Shown here piece after piece: positions 7,948-58,172 of a DNA stretch of 64,000 nt. Under the pieces are notes generated by a model that worked only from the letters and a program-made list of their open reading frames with translations, made no database searches and was not told where the DNA came from. Position 1 is the first letter of the stretch. The number at the start of each line of letters is the position of its first letter. The DNA lies in NCBI GenBank assembly GCA_017302795.1, contig JAFLCB010000006.1:186001-250000 (forward strand), given 5' to 3'. Both the position numbers and the translations under genes were made by a program. The stretch comes from Deltaproteobacteria bacterium. GTDB lineage: Bacteria; Bdellovibrionota; Bdellovibrionia; Bdellovibrionales; JAMPXM01.

Positions 7948-10293
7948 GTGATCGTGGCAAAGCTATCAGACAGAACATTACCAAAGACAGTTCGACTGAA
8001 GTCGACTCAAAAGAAGAAGCCGAATCAGGGATCGAACCAAGGGTCGACAAAACAAAGCGCTAGAAAGAAAGTGCGATCTTTTGCTGCAAGTCGGAAGACC
8101 GCAATCGAGGCGGCGAATGAAATATGCGAGGACCCGTCTCGCGACGGATCCCGAGACCTTAAATCCGAGTTTCTAAATCGCGAAGTGGAATGGCTCGAAT
8201 TCAATTTCCGAGTTTTAAATGAAGCGACGGATCGTCGCACTCCTCTACTTGAGCGCGTCCGATTTCACGGAATTTATTCGTCGAATTTAGACGAGTTTTT
8301 TATGAAGCGAATCGGTAGCCTGCGCCACCAAGTAGAAGTTAGAAGCAAACGGATGGCTGGTGGAATGACGGCCGATGAGCAGCTTGCTACCATCCGAAAA
8401 ATGGTACAAAGCCAGCAATCCAAACAAGCTGAGTCGTATCACAAAACATTGCGGCCTGAACTCAAAAAAAATGGAATTGAATTACTTGAATGGCGCGATT
8501 TGACGTCTACGGAACGTCTGATTGCAACTCGTTACTTCCGCCAAAATGTATTTCCGGTCTTGACGCCTTTGGCGGTCGATCCAGGATTGCCATTCCCTTT
8601 TATTTCCAGCCTATCGGTCAGCTTCGGCGTGACTCTCCGGCATCCTGATCGCGATGAAAAGCTTTTCGCTCGGATCAAGGTGCCGCGAATTTTTCCACAG
8701 TGGATAAAGCTGAAGCCCGATTCAACTGCAAACGAAGTTGACACTTTTGCCGGAAGCGCGCGCTTTGTCTCGCTCCTCGATGTTATTCATTTCAACTTGC
8801 GCGATCTTTTTCCAGACATGGAAATTCTAGATGTGATGCCGTTTCGAATTACTCGCAACGCCGAAGTCGAACGTGAGGAAGACGACGCTGAAGATCTTCT
8901 TGAAATGATTGCCGAGGAACTTAAACAGCGTCGCTTCGGTGAAGTCGTTCGACTCGAACACGGGCCGAACCCTGATCCTTGGATGCTTCGCTTTTTAACA
9001 GATGAACTCGAGCTCACCGAGGATGCTGTTTACGAAGTAAAAGGTTTGTTCGATTACACAGATTTAAAACCGGTTCTTGATCTGCCGTTACCACAGTTGA
9101 AATTTGAACCTTGGACCCCGCTCGTCCCGCCAAGATTGATGGACGAAAACGCGGATATTTTTGATTTGATTCGAGAAGAGGACCTGTTGGTTCATCACCC
9201 GTATGAAAGCTTCGGTGCAAGCGTCGAGCGGTTTATTCGGCAGGCGGTCGAGCAGCCAACTGTACTCGCAATCAAAATGACTCTTTACCGGACCGGCGAT
9301 GATTCTCCGTTTATCCCGCTTTTGATTCGAGCTGCAGAACAGGGTAAACAGGTCGTGGTCTTGATCGAACTAAAGGCTCGCTTTGATGAGGCGCGGAATA
9401 TTCATTGGGCCCAGCAGCTAGAAAACGCTGGAGTTCACGTTGTATATGGCGTCGTCGGTTTGAAAACGCATGCGAAGACGGCACTGGTAATACGTCAAGA
9501 GGCGAAAGGTGTTCAGTGCTACGTCCATTTGGGGACTGGAAATTACCACAAGCAGACGGCGAAGCTTTACACGGACATTGGCTATTTCACCGCGAAGTCG
9601 GCTTATACAGAGGACGTCGTCGAACTGTTTCATTTCCTCACGGGTCGAAGTTTAAAGCGCACTTATCACAAGCTTTTGGTCGCGCCGGCAGAGATGAAAG
9701 ATGGGATTTTAGCTAGAATTCGCAAAGAAACTGAGTACGCGAAAGAAGGTAAGCCGGCTAGAATTATAGCTAAGTGCAATTCCCTCGAAGAACGTGACTT
9801 GGTTCGTGCCCTTTACGAGGCGTCGCAAGCGGGGGTTGAAATTGATCTTATTGTGCGAGGATTCTGTTGTCTTCGCCCTCGCGTAAAAAAGTTGAGTGAA
9901 CGCATTCGCGTGATCTCAGTGATCGGACAATTTTTGGAGCATTCAAGAATTCTCTTTTTCTCTGGCGGTCATCAAAACCCATTGGATGGTGAGTTCTTAA
10001 TTGGCTCTGCGGATCTCATGTACCGAAATCTTTTAGGTCGAATTGAAACTATGTCACCCATTGATAGTCCGTCGGCAAAAGAACGGCTTTGGGAACTGTT
10101 GGACACTTTACTTTCTGACCGAAGAACATCTTGGGAAATGCAATCGGATGGCACCTATGTGCAGTACCAACCACGGACAACCAGCGAGCAAGATGGCACG
10201 CATCAGCGATTGATGGCATCGACGCGTGCACGACATGCCGCCGAGCTAAATCTCCTTCAAGAGCGCCAACAAGATAGGCAGCCAGAGGGATGA
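7948..10293 (+). CDS. ppk1: Polyphosphate kinase 1
   Basis: Catalyses reversible transfer of the gamma phosphate of ATP onto a growing polyphosphate chain. The 781-residue product carries the PPK1 N-terminal domain (FLNREVEWLEFNFRVLNEA at about 73-91, then SSNLDEFFMKRI). The catalytic domains carry KMTLYRTGDDSPF and KTHAKTALV, where His508 is the expected autophosphorylated residue, and later HLGTGNYH. The first 70 residues are a basic Lys/Arg/Ser extension not typical of the family. Start is GTG 7948 or GTG 7954, both following AGGA. Its last four bases overlap sixA. It heads a phosphate-metabolism block. Confidence 0.96.
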   Translation: MIVAKLSDRTLPKTVRLKSTQKKKPNQGSNQGSTKQSARKKVRSFAASRKTAIEAANEICEDPSRDGSRDLKSEFLNREVEWLEFNFRVLNEATDRRTPLLERVRFHGIYSSNLDEFFMKRIGSLRHQVEVRSKRMAGGMTADEQLATIRKMVQSQQSKQAESYHKTLRPELKKNGIELLEWRDLTSTERLIATRYFRQNVFPVLTPLAVDPGLPFPFISSLSVSFGVTLRHPDRDEKLFARIKVPRIFPQWIKLKPDSTANEVDTFAGSARFVSLLDVIHFNLRDLFPDMEILDVMPFRITRNAEVEREEDDAEDLLEMIAEELKQRRFGEVVRLEHGPNPDPWMLRFLTDELELTEDAVYEVKGLFDYTDLKPVLDLPLPQLKFEPWTPLVPPRLMDENADIFDLIREEDLLVHHPYESFGASVERFIRQAVEQPTVLAIKMTLYRTGDDSPFIPLLIRAAEQGKQVVVLIELKARFDEARNIHWAQQLENAGVHVVYGVVGLKTHAKTALVIRQEAKGVQCYVHLGTGNYHKQTAKLYTDIGYFTAKSAYTEDVVELFHFLTGRSLKRTYHKLLVAPAEMKDGILARIRKETEYAKEGKPARIIAKCNSLEERDLVRALYEASQAGVEIDLIVRGFCCLRPRVKKLSERIRVISVIGQFLEHSRILFFSGGHQNPLDGEFLIGSADLMYRNLLGRIETMSPIDSPSAKERLWELLDTLLSDRRTSWEMQSDGTYVQYQPRTTSEQDGTHQRLMASTRARHAAELNLLQERQQDRQPEG

Positions 10294-49254: not shown

Positions 49255-50637
49255 TTATTTTTTGATTCTGAGGATTCGTTTTTCGAATTGAAACTTTGCA
49301 AAGTAAAACGCTTTTCGGATCGGCCGAGAGACCGTAAAGTAGAACTGAAAAGCATGGGGGCGAATGAGGTGAAAAGGTAGTGTGATCGAGTAAAGGGCTC
49401 GACCCCACGCAACTTTAGTCACCGTCGGCCAATCGATGTAGTAAAGATGCCGAATGGGCCACGAAAGAGTAAAGTAAACTTTAAAGGCTTTTGGTTTCAG
49501 CCAGTAATAGGGCTGCTTTATCATCCCAAGCGTGCCGCCGTAGCGATGGTAACAATCGACAAAAACGTTGACCGGTAAATCAAGACTTGTTTTTCGCAGA
49601 AGCCAAATCGCAGCTGCCTGGCTTGGTCCCTTGGCAAAGAATGGGATTGATCGCGAATGGATCGAGAGTAAATCTCGGCTGGTGATCGCTTGGCCGTCCC
49701 GGAAAATTCGGATTTTCAATGTCGTGTCGGACTTTCTGAAAAGCTCACGAACTTGAATTCGTGAATAGGTGTGCAGCGGTCGCGCAAGCGGAATTAGGCC
49801 GACCGCGTGGTGAGATTGATTCTTAGATTTTAGCCAAGTCGTTACGTCCTCTTGAAGTTTGTGACCGTCAAAGTTTTCTCGGTAAAGAATTTGTGAATTG
49901 GCAGAAAATAGATTTTCCGGCTCGTGCTCGGTGATCGATTTTTCATTAAAACAGGCTAAGCTGTTCTGACCGTCACCAACATAATCTAAGTACAGCCATC
50001 CGTCTTTCCGGTCGCAAGTAAACAACGTACGGGCTTCCGGCGGTAGGTGATAGGTCTGCGGCACATAGGCCTGGAGGCTTATGTGAAAGTGAAATTCGGG
50101 GTGATATATTTGAAGGTAGTGGCGAACAAGATCCTCAAGGTCGTCGGCGGCTTTGAATAGCTTTCCCGTTTTGATGTTAGTGGACTTAATCTCGGAGCAA
50201 GCTTTTAAAACACCTTCCAGGACAGTTCGCTTGCAGTAGGGCGCGATGTCTGATTCAGCAAATGGAAAAACTGGTTTCTGCTCCCTACGATCGTGATCAA
50301 CAGTTACTCGTCCTATTATTTCGCGAAGCGTTTTCAGTCGCCGAGTGATTTTGTTCCGGTAATACGGCTCATCTACAAAAAGTGAACCGAAGTTAAAGTG
50401 CCAAAGACTTTTGCGGCTGATCTCTTCAGCGAAAGCAGCTGCCCACTGTTCTTGGAAGGGGCCGGGCAAAAGTTCGAACGCAATCCAGGTGCGGTCGGTC
50501 GAGTTTTTTTTCTCGGGAATGTTTTGCTTTAATGTTTGAGGCTTCAGAGGGTGTCGCGAGGCCGCTGCCGCAAACGTTCTTGCTTCAGGTTCTACTGCTG
50601 AATTTTCTAAGACCCCAAATTCAATTCGAATGGGCAT
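49255..50637 (-). CDS. Uncharacterised 460-residue protein divergent from radical SAM gene
   Basis: Not recognised. No signal peptide or TM helix; high in aromatic residues. Two related segments near the C-terminus, starting KPKAF (residue 381) and RPHAF (426), share the pattern [KR]P-x-AF-x-x-YFT-x-S-x-PIR-x-x-[YF], a 45-residue period. Middle parts include GWLYLDYVGDG and NVFVDCYHRYGGTLG. It starts at ATG 50637, 72 bases from the divergent radical SAM gene, so shared regulation is likely. No enzymatic motif seen. A partner or substrate of the radical SAM enzyme is a guess. Confidence 0.7.
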   Translation of the reverse strand: MPIRIEFGVLENSAVEPEARTFAAAASRHPLKPQTLKQNIPEKKNSTDRTWIAFELLPGPFQEQWAAAFAEEISRKSLWHFNFGSLFVDEPYYRNKITRRLKTLREIIGRVTVDHDRREQKPVFPFAESDIAPYCKRTVLEGVLKACSEIKSTNIKTGKLFKAADDLEDLVRHYLQIYHPEFHFHISLQAYVPQTYHLPPEARTLFTCDRKDGWLYLDYVGDGQNSLACFNEKSITEHEPENLFSANSQILYRENFDGHKLQEDVTTWLKSKNQSHHAVGLIPLARPLHTYSRIQVRELFRKSDTTLKIRIFRDGQAITSRDLLSIHSRSIPFFAKGPSQAAAIWLLRKTSLDLPVNVFVDCYHRYGGTLGMIKQPYYWLKPKAFKVYFTLSWPIRHLYYIDWPTVTKVAWGRALYSITLPFHLIRPHAFQFYFTVSRPIRKAFYFAKFQFEKRILRIKK

Positions 50638-50709
50638 GAACGCCTTTTCTTAGAGTTTCGTGCCGTATTTGATTGTGCAAACGCTAACGTCATTTGCTAT
50701 AAACTGTCT

Positions 50710-51747
50710 ATGTCCGATGCATTGACTGATCTCAATAAGTCGATTCTTTTGGCGACCGGCAATGGTCGAGGAAGCTTCTATTCTCCGGAAGAGCTTATGA
50801 CTCTTCGAATAAATAGTTGGCAAGGGTGGCGCTGTGCCGCGGGATTTGAAAATATCCACATTGGTCCAATCGGCCAAGTGACGGGCGCAGCCTGTTCAAT
50901 GCCTTGCGATATCGGCAATATTTTTGAAGGGCCGCTGAACTTTCCAAAAGATTGGCTCACATGCGAAGTGAAGTGGTGCATGTGTGGCGCAGCCATGCGC
51001 TTGAGAAAGGCTAAAACAGACGATTTGCGAAGCGAACTTGAACGAGAAGATCTTGTCGAAAAAGTGAAGGCCCCTTTGGCCTCCGTCGATGAGGCTCGCC
51101 TCGTAACGTCACCATTTTTGGACGGAGTCCGGCGGTTCCCGAAAACAGTGACGTGGGATATTTCTAAGCGCTGTAATTTTAATTGTTCCTACTGCCATCC
51201 GAAAATTTCTAACCAGACGGACCCGTTGCGGTCGCGCGATCAGGTTTTCGGCGCGGTTTTCAAAATCATCGAAGGGTTTGGACGCGGCGATCGGATCAGT
51301 TGGGTCTTCGCTGGTGGAGAACCGACGCTTCATCCTTTTTATGATGAACTTTGCGAAGTGCTCTTTCGCAAGCAACACCTGATCCATACTCAGACCAATG
51401 GCAGCCGCCTCCCCAGTTACTACGCCAAGCTTATTCATTGGAGTAATATTGGGATCAGTGTGCATCTCGAGTTTTCTCCGCCTGAGAAAATTATTGAAGT
51501 GACCCGCGCTGTTTTGGCTGAGAAAGCCGCCGATGAGCAATGTGCGAAACATTGGTTCGGACTGCGAATTATGACGCCGCCGGGCTGGTTTCAAAAGTCT
51601 CGCGACCTTATGGAGCAGCTGCAGGCATTGCCTGGATTTAAAGAACACGGACTTGTCTTCATGTCGGCCACCTACGACCGCGAAAACCGCGATGAGATGA
51701 TGCCTTACCCCGAAGACGAGTATCGGGAAATCCTCGCTCGTTCTTAG
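50710..51747 (+). CDS. Radical SAM enzyme with N-terminal extra cysteines
   Basis: 345 residues. The radical SAM cluster CxxxCxxC is at 155-162 (CNFNCSYC) with the GGEPT motif about 60 residues later. The first 100 residues carry six Cys (42, 62, 66, 85, 90, 92) in an arrangement resembling a SPASM-type auxiliary cluster (WRCAAGFENIHIGPIGQ, then CSMPCDIGN) that is normally at the C-terminus. SPASM enzymes modify peptides. It starts 72 bases from the divergent unknown gene. A TldD/TldE pair lies about 3.5 kb away. Confidence 0.85.
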   Translation: MSDALTDLNKSILLATGNGRGSFYSPEELMTLRINSWQGWRCAAGFENIHIGPIGQVTGAACSMPCDIGNIFEGPLNFPKDWLTCEVKWCMCGAAMRLRKAKTDDLRSELEREDLVEKVKAPLASVDEARLVTSPFLDGVRRFPKTVTWDISKRCNFNCSYCHPKISNQTDPLRSRDQVFGAVFKIIEGFGRGDRISWVFAGGEPTLHPFYDELCEVLFRKQHLIHTQTNGSRLPSYYAKLIHWSNIGISVHLEFSPPEKIIEVTRAVLAEKAADEQCAKHWFGLRIMTPPGWFQKSRDLMEQLQALPGFKEHGLVFMSATYDRENRDEMMPYPEDEYREILARS

Positions 51748-51867
51748 GGACGCGGCTTGCCTCTATGAGAGCCTATCTGAGTGCGGTGTTTGCGAGTTTC
51801 TCGTCTAAGTGAATGTCTCTTCCGAGCAAGTGTCTCGACCAAGCAGAGCTCTCGTTTGAGAATTTTC

Positions 51868-51980
51868 GGGGACCGGGGATCGGGGATCCGGGATCGGGGA
51901 TCGGGGATCCGGGATCGGGGATCGGGGATCGGGGATCCGGGATCGGGGACCGGGGACCGGGGATCCGGGGATCCGGGATC
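51868..51980. repeat. Heptanucleotide GGGGATC tandem array
   Basis: About 16 units of GGGGATC with variants GGGGACC and alternating GGGGATCC/GGGATC, 113 bases in all, followed by GGTTTTTTG. The repeat begins 120 bases after the radical SAM stop. It has multiple GGATCC palindromes and runs of four G. Possible slipped-strand, G-quadruplex or terminator function. Confidence 0.95.
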
Positions 51981-52435
51981 GGTTTTTTGTTATATGAAGA
52001 AGCGGTTTCTTTTTAAAAGTTTCAATTCGCCTGTCCGATCAATTAGTCGTCAATTCCCATGCGGGATGCGCCCACGCTCGTTCCCGATTCTGTAAACGTG
52101 ATAGCTGTAATTTCAAGGGTGAAGCGACTTTTTTCGGAGTCGCTCATCGGCATCACCCGCTAAAAAACTTTCCTAATTCGACTTCTTGATGGACCTTACT
52201 TCCCTCTTAAGGCGCTTTGCTTCGTGGCGGCTCCAGTCAGCGCAGTACCCTCGCTTCAACCCAAGAAAGTTGCGGACTAAGAACCAAATGCAGCCGGTTT
52301 TGCGGCCAAGCTGAACTTGACTTTATACCATCGGTCACGTAGAGATGGTCGCTCTCAATCAGCAAGGAAACGACAATAAAAAACGTAAAGAACTTGGTAA
52401 AAAAAGCCGCTCGATCGAGCCACGTGGACTCGTCA
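51981..52435. other. Gene-poor stretch after the repeat array
   Basis: No convincing gene. A nested hairpin lies at 52117-52158: GGGTG with CACCC outside, AGCGACT with AGTCGCT inside around a T-rich loop. It is not followed by a T-run. The rest has no recognised promoter, tRNA or small ORF. The reading frame of the following gene is open from TTG 52394, but there is no strong ribosome-binding site before it. Confidence 0.6.
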
Positions 52436-53146
52436 ATGCGACGGGGTAGCGTGGCAAAAGCACAGCACTCTGAGCGCCGAGATCGAAATCCGCGAAGCGG
52501 TCAAATGGCGATGCTTAAGTCGAAGAAATCGGCTTATGGAGGTCAGTTAAGAAATACCCGTGCTGGGCGAGAGGGCGCGCGGCCTCTGTCCGTCCGAGAT
52601 TCCATGCACCTCGTCCTTCGATCCTCCAAGGCGAAAGGCGAATGGTCATTTTTGCGTTCGCGAAACGCGAAAGTAGTGAAGTCGGTTGTCGAAAAATTTG
52701 CGTTTGTCTACGGCGTGAAGATTCTTTCGCTGGTCAATGTAGGCAATCATCTACACCTCCACATTCGGCTTGGAAGCAGGTTCAGCTACAAGCCGTTTGT
52801 TCGAGCTATCACCGGTTCGATTGCAATGGCAATCACGGGAAAAAATCGCTGGACTCAAGCGAGGATTGCATTGGCGGAGACGATTTCACCGGTGAGTGCG
52901 GCGCAATCCGCCACAGCGATCACTTCTGCGGAAGCGATTGGGGTTGCTACCGCGGTAGCTACGCGATTTTGGGATCATAGACCTTTCACCCGGGTTGTAA
53001 GTGGCTTTAAGGCTGCGCGGCGACTTATTGATTATTTGAGAATTAATGAAATGGAAGGCTGGGGCTTTAGTAAATTTGAAGCGCGCGGGATGTTTGAAAT
53101 CGAACGCAAACTTCAGCTTGGAATTTCAACATGGGGAGCTGGCTAG
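52436..53146 (+). CDS. HUH tyrosine transposase-like protein (REP-associated type)
   Basis: 236 residues from ATG 52436; the frame extends to TTG 52394 and an internal ATG at 52505 or 52511 is possible. Basic N-terminal region, then a Y1-transposase-like domain from about 50: MHLVLRSSKAKG, a helix, NVGNHLHLHIRLGSR with the HUH histidines (105-109), FVRAITGSIAMAITG, then RFWDHRPFTRVV and DYLRINEMEG where the Tyr may be catalytic. Resembles RAYT proteins, which mobilise REP palindromes. No IS ends seen. Likely domesticated or single-copy. Confidence 0.75.
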   Translation: MRRGSVAKAQHSERRDRNPRSGQMAMLKSKKSAYGGQLRNTRAGREGARPLSVRDSMHLVLRSSKAKGEWSFLRSRNAKVVKSVVEKFAFVYGVKILSLVNVGNHLHLHIRLGSRFSYKPFVRAITGSIAMAITGKNRWTQARIALAETISPVSAAQSATAITSAEAIGVATAVATRFWDHRPFTRVVSGFKAARRLIDYLRINEMEGWGFSKFEARGMFEIERKLQLGISTWGAG

Positions 53147-53395: not shown

Positions 53396-54184
53396 ATGGA
53401 CCACAAGCCGGCCGTGAGTCAGGCTTTCTGCACCGAATGGAGTCGTCAGTTGAGTTTGCGTTTGAGCGGGTTTTTCCTCACTTTTTTACTTTGTGTCCTG
53501 CCGTTGATTGGCAGCCGCGCACTTGCGCAATCTGCTGAGCTAACTCAGGGCGAAGCTGGGAGTGAGGTCCAAACTGGTCATCAAATCCTGGTAGGTGGAG
53601 ATTCCGGGCAAGTCACGGATGCGCCAGCGGTGACAAATACTCAAGAGCATGGGGCCGCATCCAATACCTCCGCTGCGGAGGATAAAAAAATATTTTCGAA
53701 GGACGCCGTCAGTCCCGACGGGCGGAAGGACAGTGGCGTGGCACTGCCATGTTTGCGCGATCTTGGGGTCATCGATTGCATACTGACCTATGGATTTCGG
53801 GTGATCGAATTTCATGCGATTGGTGAAGAGGTCATCGCCCGGTTTCAAAGGCTTGATGGGACGGTGAACGATGCGGACGTCATAGTGATGAGTTCTCACA
53901 TCGAAGATGCCGCACTGAATGATCGAATCAATCTTGACGAGAGCCCCGTTATTTTTGCTCAATTTCAGCAGCTCTCTGGCGCTAGGTATGAGATTCCTCG
54001 AACTGCAAATGAGATAAAGCGATCGCTTGGTTTTTCTGAGGAGACGCTGATCGCCCCAGTGGACTGGTTGGAAATTCTAAAAGTTCATTTGGAACGAACT
54101 CTTTCAACTACACCCACTGTTAGTGATTTAATCTTGGACTTATTGGGAGTTGAACTAAACCCAGTCGTAATTGAAGCTAACTGA
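53396..54184 (+). CDS. Secreted hypothetical protein
   Basis: 262 residues; not recognised. Signal peptide with a long n-region (LSGFFLTFLLCVLPLIGSRALAQ, cleavage about 44), an acidic/Ser-Thr linker, and a C-terminal domain (about 115-262) with two Cys (LPCLRDLGVIDC) and alternating beta-alpha pattern. The ATG is close to the second repeat copy; a downstream TTG start (53451, beginning LSLRLS) would free the repeats from the coding region. Its last 30 bases overlap the convergent oxygenase gene. Confidence 0.65.
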   Translation: MDHKPAVSQAFCTEWSRQLSLRLSGFFLTFLLCVLPLIGSRALAQSAELTQGEAGSEVQTGHQILVGGDSGQVTDAPAVTNTQEHGAASNTSAAEDKKIFSKDAVSPDGRKDSGVALPCLRDLGVIDCILTYGFRVIEFHAIGEEVIARFQRLDGTVNDADVIVMSSHIEDAALNDRINLDESPVIFAQFQQLSGARYEIPRTANEIKRSLGFSEETLIAPVDWLEILKVHLERTLSTTPTVSDLILDLLGVELNPVVIEAN

Positions 54185-54793
54185 AATTCGCTCGCGTTTC
54201 GAATCGAGCGGGACTGTAGGAACCTCGTGGCGAAGCCAGCTTTCAAACAAAACAACGTCGCCCGCCTTGGGTTTTAGCTCAAAAAATGGTTGGTCCTCTT
54301 TAGGTGCCTGAGGATGGCGCGGTGGCTGCGCCATGAAACGTTCCAGTCTCGGGTCTTCGAATTTGATCGGGCTAGTGCCAGGCGGAGTAGTAACGTAGAA
54401 GGTGCCGCTGACGACCGCAAGCGGATGCAAGTGTAAGCTATGGTTCGCGCCTGCGGGCATGATGTTGACCCAACAGGTCACCATTCTTAAGCGGCCGCCG
54501 CCTAAATTCCAGTTCTGCATTTTTGAAAAACGAGCGACGTGTTTGTCTAAGTATTTTTCCAATTCCGCAAATGGTGGGAACTGGGAATGAAGAGCGTCCA
54601 TCGAGCCATAGGAAGTAAATCCGCCTTTGTAGTTGGAACGCGACCAGGCCTGACCGTCTTCGTCGATGTCGCGAATGATGTGCGCATCGCGCTCGATCAC
54701 TTTCCGCAGACGATTCGCTGAGTTGCTTGAAGGCGAAGAGTGTGCCAGCGGAGCCTGATAAATTCGCGTCGGAAAAAGCGTGTGTGTAGCCAC
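54155..54793 (-). CDS. 2OG-Fe(II) oxygenase-like protein (TIGR02466 type)
   Basis: 212 residues. HSLHLHPLAVVSGTFYVTTP supplies the double-stranded beta-helix strand with the putative iron ligands H-x-H, then EDPRL and FESWLRHEVPT with the distal His, and RISVSFNYD with the Arg that binds 2-oxoglutarate. Proteins of this kind are putative dioxygenases with unknown substrate, sometimes in phages. N-terminal LFPTRIYQA fits the family start. Confidence 0.83.
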   Translation of the reverse strand: MATHTLFPTRIYQAPLAHSSPSSNSANRLRKVIERDAHIIRDIDEDGQAWSRSNYKGGFTSYGSMDALHSQFPPFAELEKYLDKHVARFSKMQNWNLGGGRLRMVTCWVNIMPAGANHSLHLHPLAVVSGTFYVTTPPGTSPIKFEDPRLERFMAQPPRHPQAPKEDQPFFELKPKAGDVVLFESWLRHEVPTVPLDSKRERISVSFNYDWV

Positions 54794-55138: not shown

Positions 55139-55326
55139 AAATGAACCTCCTGCTTTTAACAGTGTAGGGCTGTTTTCGGATTTGGCGAGACACAACCAAT
55201 GGGTATTCCGTCAGTTTTGACGTTTATAAAGTCTGTTTGTCGAAGCTTTCTTCTTGAGAATCCTCCTGCTAGGCTTTGGTACGCCACAGGCGCACTTCAC
55301 TGGATCGTGAAGGAAAGGGTTTGGAC

Positions 55327-56733
55327 ATGTTATCTCAAGGAGTTGTCAAAAAGGTCTTGGACGCGGCACTCGAGCGCGGCGCGCAGTTTGCCGAGCTTTT
55401 TGTAGAAGACACTTACCAGAGTGAATTGCGCCTTGTTGACTCGAAACCGTCCAATGCCGTGATTGGCCGTTTGAAGGGCGCCGGAGTGCGTGTTTTCTAC
55501 GGCCATGAACAGGTCTACGTGACGACCAACGATCTAACTGAAGCGGGCCTTCTTAAGGCGGCCCGGACGGCGGCGGCCGCGAAGCCCGTCGCGGGCGGCG
55601 GAGTGACTCGTGTCGAGTCAAAGGCCTTCCGACCAGAGGAGTTTGATCAAATTCATCATTACCTGACCAAGCCTTGGGAGTACGACTCTGGCAAAAAGTT
55701 TCAACACTTAGTGACGATGGACAAAGCCGCTCGAACTCGCTCGGCGATGGTCACCCAAGTTGAACCGTTCCTATTAGAAAAGTGTCAAAAGATTTTGGTC
55801 GCCAACAGCGACGGGGTTTGGGCAGAAGATGAGCGCAATTACGTGCGTGCCGGCTGCAATGTTTCACTTGAAGATCAAGGTAGTCGGGAATCTCAGCACA
55901 CTCGCCTTGGACAGGTTGGAACCAGCGAGTGGTTTGACACCGTTGATTTTTCGAAACTTGCGACCGACGCGGTTGATCGAGCGAAGCTTCTGATTCACGC
56001 AGATTACGCTCCTGCAGGAGAATTCCCGGTTGTGATCGACAACGGATTTGGCGGAGTGATTTTCCACGAGGCTTGCGGCCATGGACTGGAAACAACTTCG
56101 GTGGCGAAAGACGCCTCGGTGTTTTGTGGAAAGAAAGATCAGAAAATTGCGGAAAGCTGTGTCACGGCCATCGACGACGGAACAATCGCAAACGCATGGG
56201 GTTCTTTGAACGTTGATGACGAGGGAATGAAGACGAAGAAAACCGTTTTGATCGAAAATGGTGTTTTGAAAAGCTACATCGTTGACGACATGGGAGCGAA
56301 GCAGACTGGTTTTGCGCGCACGGGAAGCGGACGAAGACAGAGTTACAAGTATGCTCCAGCGTCACGTATGCGGAACACTTACATCGCGGCTGGCAGTGAT
56401 AGTTTAGACGATATGATTCGCGACATTGATTTCGGGATTTACGCCAAAGAAATGGGTGGTGGATCCGTTTCGCCAGGAACAGGCGATTACAATTTTGGCG
56501 TGACCGAAGGTTGGCTCATTCGAAACGGAAAACTTGAAAAGCCAGTGAAGGGTGCAACTTTGATCGGGCGCGGAATAGAAACTTTAGGTCGCATCACTAA
56601 AGTGGGATCGGATCTTCGTTTGCAAGATGGTATGTGCGGTTCGGTCAGCGGAAGTATTCCTACGACCGTAGGACAGCCGGCATTGCTGGTTTCAAAAATC
56701 CTTGTAGGCGGACGTGCCGGGGGTGCGAAGTGA
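55327..56733 (+). CDS. tldD: TldD metalloprotease subunit
   Basis: 468 residues from ATG 55327 (AAAGGG upstream). The zinc-binding HEACGH is at 247-252, in GVIFHEACGHGLE, as in TldD. With TldE it makes a heterodimeric protease that cleaves unfolded peptides and matures microcin B17 or degrades CcdA in E. coli. The following gene overlaps by four bases (GTGA). Confidence 0.95.
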   Translation: MLSQGVVKKVLDAALERGAQFAELFVEDTYQSELRLVDSKPSNAVIGRLKGAGVRVFYGHEQVYVTTNDLTEAGLLKAARTAAAAKPVAGGGVTRVESKAFRPEEFDQIHHYLTKPWEYDSGKKFQHLVTMDKAARTRSAMVTQVEPFLLEKCQKILVANSDGVWAEDERNYVRAGCNVSLEDQGSRESQHTRLGQVGTSEWFDTVDFSKLATDAVDRAKLLIHADYAPAGEFPVVIDNGFGGVIFHEACGHGLETTSVAKDASVFCGKKDQKIAESCVTAIDDGTIANAWGSLNVDDEGMKTKKTVLIENGVLKSYIVDDMGAKQTGFARTGSGRRQSYKYAPASRMRNTYIAAGSDSLDDMIRDIDFGIYAKEMGGGSVSPGTGDYNFGVTEGWLIRNGKLEKPVKGATLIGRGIETLGRITKVGSDLRLQDGMCGSVSGSIPTTVGQPALLVSKILVGGRAGGAK

Positions 56734-58172
56734 ACGAAAACGTAGGGACACACGAGCAGGGCACATTCGATTACGGCACGATTGAAAAGGGCTTTCAAAC
56801 GCTCTCGGAATTAGCCAGAAAAGATGGCGTTGATCTTGAGCTGATTGTTGAACGCGGTGAAATGCTGGGACTCTCGGTTTCACAAGGGAAGCTAGAAAAG
56901 TTTGATAGCTCACAAAGCCAGGTCGGAGGCCTAAGAGTGCTGATGAATGGCGTTGAGGGTTATAGTTGGACGGAAAGCCTGCATGACGAAGACCTTGTCG
57001 CTGCCTACCGTGACGCCCTGGAAAGTGCAAAGTTTTCGGCCCGTGGAAACGTCATGCGATCAGTTGAAGAGCGAGCAAAGGAAATGATTGAGCTCTGGGG
57101 ATCAGGTGCCTCAGTCGTCGTGAAAGAAGATCCGGCTCTTTTTAACGACACGCTTGGAAAAGTATCGATGGATTCAAAAATCGATCGCGCAAAAATGCTG
57201 GAGTTGAAGTCTAAGGAGCGCGATTCGCGGATCGCAAATGTGCCGTACAATCGCTATAGCGAAACAAGCGGCGAAGTGATGATATTCAACTCGAAAGGCG
57301 TTCGCGCTCGTCAACGTCGAACGGGAGTCATGGGTTATACCTATTGTCTTGCAAAATCAGGTGAGGAATCGCGGATGGCTGGCGAAAGCTTCTTTACACG
57401 AAACGCGACCTCGGTTCCAATCGCAGAGACAGCGGCGCTTGCCGCGGAGAAAGCAGTCAATAAACTAGGTTCTGTTTCGCCAGAAACTGGGAGATATCCA
57501 ATCGTGATCGATCGAGAAGTAGCGGCCGAGGTTTTCGGATTAATCGCCGACTACTTTTCAGCGAAATCGCTAGCCGAACGTACTACGATTTACGGAAAAA
57601 GTCCCGAGCCATCGGCCAATCTTGGTCAAGTGGTTGGAAGCGCAGTTCTGCAAATCTCCGATGATCCGCAGTTGGACGGTGGAATCGGCAATCGCCCGTT
57701 TGATTCAGAAGGCGTGCCGACAAGGAAGACTCTTCTCGTCGAAAATGGCGTGCTGAAAGCGTTCTTAACGAACTCGGTGTATGCAAAGCGCTTAGGTCTT
57801 CCACACACTGCGAACGCCAGCCGGTCCGCACGTACTCAGCTGGACGTGGGGCCGTCAAATTTGGTTGTGTCTGAAGGTTCGGAAACTTTCGAGCAGCTGA
57901 TGGCGACGTATCCAAAAATGATTTACGTCACAGATTTCACTGGCTACCACGCCGGGTTCCAACACGGATCTGGATCTTTCAGTTTTCAGAGTGAAGGGGA
58001 GCTTTGGGAAAACGGAAAGAAAGTGAAGTCTCTTTGCAATTTCGTCGTCGCCGGATCCATCGACGAAATGTTAAAGGGACTTGAAAAAGTAAGTTCGAGG
58101 CTTTCGCCGAAATCTTCCTCGGTGATTGCGCCCGATTTATTAGTCAAATCATTGTCAGTCGCGGGTGCTTAA
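56730..58172 (+). CDS. tldE: TldE/PmbA metalloprotease subunit
   Basis: 480 residues from GTG 56730. PmbA pattern GGLRVLMNGVEGYSWTES early on and the C-terminal domain VTDFTGYHAGFQHGSGSFSF. Lacks the HExxxH of TldD, as is normal for TldE. Translationally coupled to tldD. Confidence 0.94.
   Translation: MNENVGTHEQGTFDYGTIEKGFQTLSELARKDGVDLELIVERGEMLGLSVSQGKLEKFDSSQSQVGGLRVLMNGVEGYSWTESLHDEDLVAAYRDALESAKFSARGNVMRSVEERAKEMIELWGSGASVVVKEDPALFNDTLGKVSMDSKIDRAKMLELKSKERDSRIANVPYNRYSETSGEVMIFNSKGVRARQRRTGVMGYTYCLAKSGEESRMAGESFFTRNATSVPIAETAALAAEKAVNKLGSVSPETGRYPIVIDREVAAEVFGLIADYFSAKSLAERTTIYGKSPEPSANLGQVVGSAVLQISDDPQLDGGIGNRPFDSEGVPTRKTLLVENGVLKAFLTNSVYAKRLGLPHTANASRSARTQLDVGPSNLVVSEGSETFEQLMATYPKMIYVTDFTGYHAGFQHGSGSFSFQSEGELWENGKKVKSLCNFVVAGSIDEMLKGLEKVSSRLSPKSSSVIAPDLLVKSLSVAGA

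Follow-up and report, generated by a model that had tools for sequence, protein, structure and literature searches.

The analysed window is a stretch of 64,000 nucleotides of a Bdellovibrionota genome (contig JAFLCB010000006.1, positions 186,001 to 250,000), in which a radical SAM enzyme gene diverges from the gene of a larger protein, its partner (Table 1). The divergent ORFs lie as originally predicted, with their start codons 72 bp apart, and a TATAAA whose end is six bases ahead of the enzyme's ATG would suggest a leaderless transcript of the enzyme gene. A consensus scan of the shared upstream region returned no sigma-70 site. The shared 72 bp would not by itself prove that the two genes are a functional pair.

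Table 1 Features of the divergent gene pair, in window coordinates (R, radical SAM core; S, auxiliary cluster domain; P, partner family)
Feature	Position	Strand	Details
Radical SAM enzyme gene (S-R order)	50710..51747	+	345 aa; PF04055 45.3 bits, permuted matches to R-S paralogues, alignments A1 and A7
Auxiliary cluster domain S (Twitch/SPASM-like), N-terminal	50740..51045	+	residues 11-112; C42, C62, C85, C90, C92, K100
Radical SAM core R	51136..51609	+	residues 143-300; C155-x3-C159-x2-C162 and GGEPT
37-bp stretch 5′ of the enzyme gene, near-identical in G002	50673..50709	+	contains TGCTATAAA, extended -10-like, at 50695-50703
Partner gene (P family, divergent, C-terminal tail)	49255..50637	-	460 aa; P-family profile E 1e-14
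P-family core	49696..50508	-	residues 44-314; without H-x2-FE and N-x2-IH-x2-E
Duplicated aromatic segment, copy 1	49438..49521	-	residues 373-400
Duplicated aromatic segment, copy 2	49303..49386	-	residues 418-445
C-terminal tail with SRPIRKAFYFAKFQFEKRIL	49258..49359	-	common to glycosyltransferases and R-S paralogue

Other features lie beyond the enzyme gene. A tandem repeat of the GGGGATC/CCGGGATC type occupies 51865-51985, about 120 bp 3′ of it, and positions 52394-53146 give a weak match to an IS200-like (Y1) transposase (E 2.5e-4, under the Pfam cut-off). A 2OG-Fe(II) oxygenase gene (PF13759, E 5e-31) lies at 54155-54793 on the reverse strand, with a similar gene after the pair in genome G002, and 55276-58172 holds two genes which by eye read like TldD and TldE from their sequence, their order being kept in G002. 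These TldD/TldE-like genes were considered as proteases of a RiPP system and set aside, since they do not adjoin the pair in G001.

A radical SAM enzyme with its auxiliary domain first

The enzyme belongs to the radical SAM superfamily by its PF04055 score, against a gathering score of 29.5, together with the CxxxCxxC motif, and the radical SAM core was the only match in a Pfam search. The motif was found at residues 155-162 as predicted from the sequence, and so were six cysteines within residues 1-100 (42, 62, 66, 85, 90 and 92). The window enzyme is circularly permuted, with the cysteine domain ahead of the core (S-R) rather than behind it (R-S). Its residues 147-302 match positions 7918-8364 of contig C10 from the same genome (E 2e-10) and its residues 20-94 match positions 8596-8820 (E 4e-6) in the same 453-aa frame; that paralogue thus has the core ahead of the Cys domain, opposite to the order in the window enzyme. 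The two orders also stand side by side in a tandem at locus L047, with permuted matches of E 5.5e-9 and 2.1e-9.

R and S profiles run over all ORFs fetched found R-S in 167 ORFs and S-R or S-S-R in 64, counts that are not deduplicated; the scans were pattern-based with an upper limit on hits, so that locus and gene counts throughout are samples, and E-values of the self-built profiles hold for the ORF sets used here. R and S are also encoded as separate genes, as in bacterial genomes G029, G036, G048 and G219 and in viral contigs (L301 and others), with split pairs overlapping by 4 bp in L015, L301, L029 and L131. Rarer layouts include two proteins of about 650 aa with the order R-S-x-S (L133:505-2472 and L135:526-2472), in which the second S follows a stretch with no detectable core, and ORFs with two radical SAM cores per chain (L173:7989-10574 and L207:3048-4982). 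Relatives come from Bdellovibrionota MAGs and uncultivated viral contigs, where "viral" is the IMG/VR label and viral genes were looked for by eye at L230 only. Among 50,697 deposited phage records there was no match for the window enzyme, a viral S-R enzyme, a viral P protein or the P protein of genome G017, and an R-S enzyme was matched at the level of the core only.

In a quick tree of R cores, of whose 102 inner branches 40 are open and whose midpoint root serves drawing only, 35 of 36 S-R proteins fall into a single clade (93% SH-aLRT), the remaining sequence, from L241, being a very long branch. An AU test did not reject a single clade of all 36 (p 0.70), and the constrained tree scores better. 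The tree is consistent with S-R having arisen once, which is the simplest reading. As it is midpoint-rooted, we take R-S to be the older order from its wide spread and from the family STM4011, which has the same order. The existing split genes suggest a probable route, by which an R-S gene was divided into two ORFs and the halves were re-fused once as S-R. None of the papers searched treats radical SAM, SPASM and circular permutation together. N-terminal Twitch domains are already known (N_Twi_rSAM); what is new is this S-R variant of the R-S family.

The N-terminal cysteines had been described as a SPASM-like pattern at the wrong end of the protein. That description holds, and homology to the C-terminal domain of the R-S paralogues explains the displacement; membership of the SPASM family itself was rejected. 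A SPASM domain has a seven-Cys motif and two auxiliary clusters. The window protein has five conserved cysteines and gave no Pfam match for SPASM (PF13186) at E <= 1, the R-S relative L342 giving a marginal one (E 0.037). C42, C62, C85, C90 and C92 are each present in 27 of 27 S-R proteins; among 142 R-S proteins C42 and C90 are invariant, C85 is found in 141, C62 in 112 and C92 in 108. C66 occurs in the window protein alone in the same comparison. Five of the six cysteines are therefore conserved in distant relatives, so that poor conservation, which the original prediction had named as counting against it, is not what is seen. (Alignment A3, in which the window row has L for I34, served searching and profile building only.) With four cysteines kept in almost every member of each architecture and the fifth in most, there are enough for one [4Fe-4S] cluster, and five conserved cysteines rather than seven make a single-cluster, Twitch-like domain likelier; Twitch-like is the best label for S, if not a proven one.

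Structure comparison points the same way, though no PDB match is significant: the window S domain was modelled with a pLDDT of 92.7, and its two top-probability matches among PDB folds, over about 40 residues and with E > 1, are radical SAM enzymes, the sactipeptide enzyme 5why and BtrN (4m7s). A PDB sequence search with the S profile gave no credible match. BtrN and 5why have an auxiliary [4Fe-4S] domain beside a radical SAM core, as is predicted for the window protein. In these and similar Twitch/SPASM enzymes, however, that domain is C-terminal, unlike the N-terminal one described here. N_Twi_rSAM (NF033640) does have an N-terminal auxiliary (Twitch) domain, and its genes often adjoin S-R genes, but its N-terminal cysteines are spaced C-x17-CC...CxxC as against C-x19-C...C-x4-C-x-C in the window. 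Membership was rejected at 30.2 bits against a cut-off of 170, over residues 142-254 of the R core only, as was homology of the two auxiliary domains (hhalign probability 0.1, unlike Cys spacing). The nearest named relative on the R-S side is STM4011 (NF038073), which L342 matches near full length (E 3e-14), if at just 52.9 bits against a cut-off of 200, and whose C-terminal part is matched by stand-alone S proteins (E 5e-6). STM4011 has R before S, and the window protein, at 22.7 bits against 200 with its best stretch within the radical SAM core, is not a member.

The partner protein and its shared tail

The partner had been described as a protein with no known domain, and searches of Pfam, NCBIfam, PHROGs, PADLOC and PDB sequences agree. 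A profile from which the window's genus was left out assigns it to the P family, as a divergent member. The motifs H-x2-FE and N-x2-IH-x2-E, almost universal in that family and present in G017 and in viral members, are absent from the proteins of the window, G001 and G002. An AlphaFold model of the partner is good across most of the stretch from residue 50 to 320, and past residue 325 its confidence is very low. A fold search with P gave no match and a PDB sequence search none that was convincing. PqqD/RRE-like N-terminal extensions, an idea formed by eye for the P relatives L088-L090, found no Pfam match at E <= 5. A P domain is fused to an aspartyl/asparaginyl beta-hydroxylase (PF05118) in L109:1-2349, and in L093 a look-alike gene stands beside P.

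The motif AF-x2-YFT-x-S-x-PIR occurs twice in the partner, 45 residues apart, as was reported for this sequence, and the two 28-aa segments around it align with a BLOSUM62 score of 75, where 1000 shuffles reached 46 at most. The duplicated segment ends in a tail that has, in 101 residues, 18 K/R, 3 D/E and 24 aromatic residues (net charge +15, 24% aromatic). An amphipathic helix was considered for it and dropped, the moment being modest and the stretch instead basic and aromatic. The final 34 residues of the partner have matches at the C-terminal ends of the R-S paralogue on C10, of GT2 glycosyltransferases and of several further, unassigned proteins in the order. The duplicated aromatic segment is thus a local version of a glycosyltransferase tail and not particular to this gene pair. 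Since the tail is also found in G004 and G020, genomes without an S domain, it is not specific to this system but a general tag, most simply an address to a membrane or a complex.

These observations bear on whether the pair is a RiPP-like system in which the repeated aromatic C-terminal segment of the partner is a core substrate, cross-linked or otherwise modified by the enzyme. A duplicated, aromatic and basic segment would suit such a role, peptide modification is common among radical SAM enzymes with Twitch or SPASM domains, and the partner is the faster-evolving of the two, being only 40% identical to its G002 counterpart as against 82% for the enzyme. The occurrence of the same tail on GT2 glycosyltransferases, on an R-S radical SAM paralogue and in genomes lacking the S domain argues against it, as do viral P proteins whose genes overlap that of an R-S enzyme and which end without the tail. 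Reading of two intergenic regions showed no obvious dedicated precursor peptide. We consider this reading improbable; the tail is probably not the substrate of the S-R enzyme.

Gene neighbourhoods of S-R enzymes and P proteins

The window's genome, G001 and G002 all carry P and S-R head to head and are the only searched genus members with either gene; G003 and G004 have neither, and in G017 the P and S-R genes both lie at contig ends. Within 3 kb of 34 distinct S-R loci, a sample from which the G002 pair is missing through masking by a longer spurious ORF, we found an N_Twi_rSAM-type gene at 23, an R-S gene at 14 and a P gene at four. A viral scan seeded by P alone gave an R-S gene overlapping and directly 3′ of P for 33 of 53 distinct P genes, again a sample, and no S-R gene in the searched flanks of any of the 53. 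At L238:8939-10620 P directly follows separate R and S genes between which lies an ORF that reads like an ATP pyrophosphatase. The usual partner of P is the unpermuted R-S enzyme, and P beside S-R is nearly restricted to the window's genus.

The suggestion of a functional pair therefore holds in kind, with P in viruses tied to this radical SAM family and the pair kept in three of three genus members, and fails in detail, P standing elsewhere beside R-S and S-R mostly beside N_Twi_rSAM or R-S. Co-occurrence in other genomes, which the original prediction had proposed as its test, was found in G001 and G002; P lies near S-R, however, in just those four of the 34 loci. If the two genes were chance neighbours with unrelated functions, one would expect what is seen at the 30 S-R loci with no P nearby and the 53 viral P loci with no S-R. 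We regard this as quite unlikely nonetheless, given the conserved head-to-head order in three genomes, the link of viral P to R-S enzymes and one viral contig, L232:2150-13492, where a mostly overlapping gene run holds five N_Twi_rSAM-type genes and two P genes together with one each of R-S and S-R. Since the parts are co-located more widely, as in L232, the pair is a local arrangement of co-travelling parts.

Such neighbourhoods could also mean that S-R and R-S form a heterodimer, two mirror-image chains acting on one substrate, with P dispensable. R-S directly precedes S-R, often overlapping it, at L230, L231, L233, L237, L239, L241, L264, L047 and L122, and the R-S genes that adjoin S-R come mostly from a single region of the R tree. 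In the window genome, however, the R-S paralogue lies on a different contig (C10), and 20 of the 34 S-R loci, some on short contigs, have no R-S within 3 kb, which leaves the heterodimer a tentative alternative.

A possible role at the cell surface

The explanation that we prefer, at a probability of about 0.5, joins a permuted Twitch/SPASM-type radical SAM enzyme to P as an accessory protein, the most likely role being to modify a glycan or glycoconjugate of the cell surface by radical chemistry. The enzyme should cleave SAM at its CxxxCxxC cluster, and the 100-residue S domain, which precedes the core, should hold one further [4Fe-4S] cluster by means of its four or five conserved cysteines; by analogy with what is thought of canonical Twitch enzymes, that cluster may serve in substrate binding or as an electron relay. 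The partner, having lost the His/Glu motifs of its family, is probably a subunit for binding or scaffolding, and its basic aromatic tail, which GT2 glycosyltransferases and this genome's R-S paralogue also carry, would hold it at the membrane. The enzyme belongs to multi-radical-SAM modules of N_Twi_rSAM, R-S, S-R and P in Bdellovibrionota and uncultivated viruses.

The inferred function is that a glycan or glycoconjugate of the surface is tailored by radical chemistry at the membrane. It is suggested by the tail common to glycosyltransferases, by locus L230, where an R-S/S-R pair lies a few genes past ORFs that by eye resemble tail proteins, and by the host-recognition clusters of pelagimyophages, in which radical SAM cassettes occur with tail fibres and glycosyltransferases (PMC7029224). 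The resemblance is that the radical SAM genes, there as here, belong to uncultivated viruses and have tail-fibre and glycosyltransferase genes nearby; the domain order, the split forms and the P family are not described in the parts of that account drawn on here. A bolder possibility, which we hold to be speculative, is that the mirror-image R-S and S-R paralogues, P and N_Twi_rSAM form one multi-radical machine, common to viruses and predatory bacteria, that modifies surface glycans or tail proteins, with the split R and S genes as living intermediates of the permutation.

Linked as it is to these enzymes across many uncultivated viruses, the P family, which has no recognised domain or fold, is a defined target. 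An auxiliary domain found behind, before and apart from its core amounts to a natural experiment, indicating that it need only be nearby and not covalently placed, and the stand-alone S proteins allow tests in trans.
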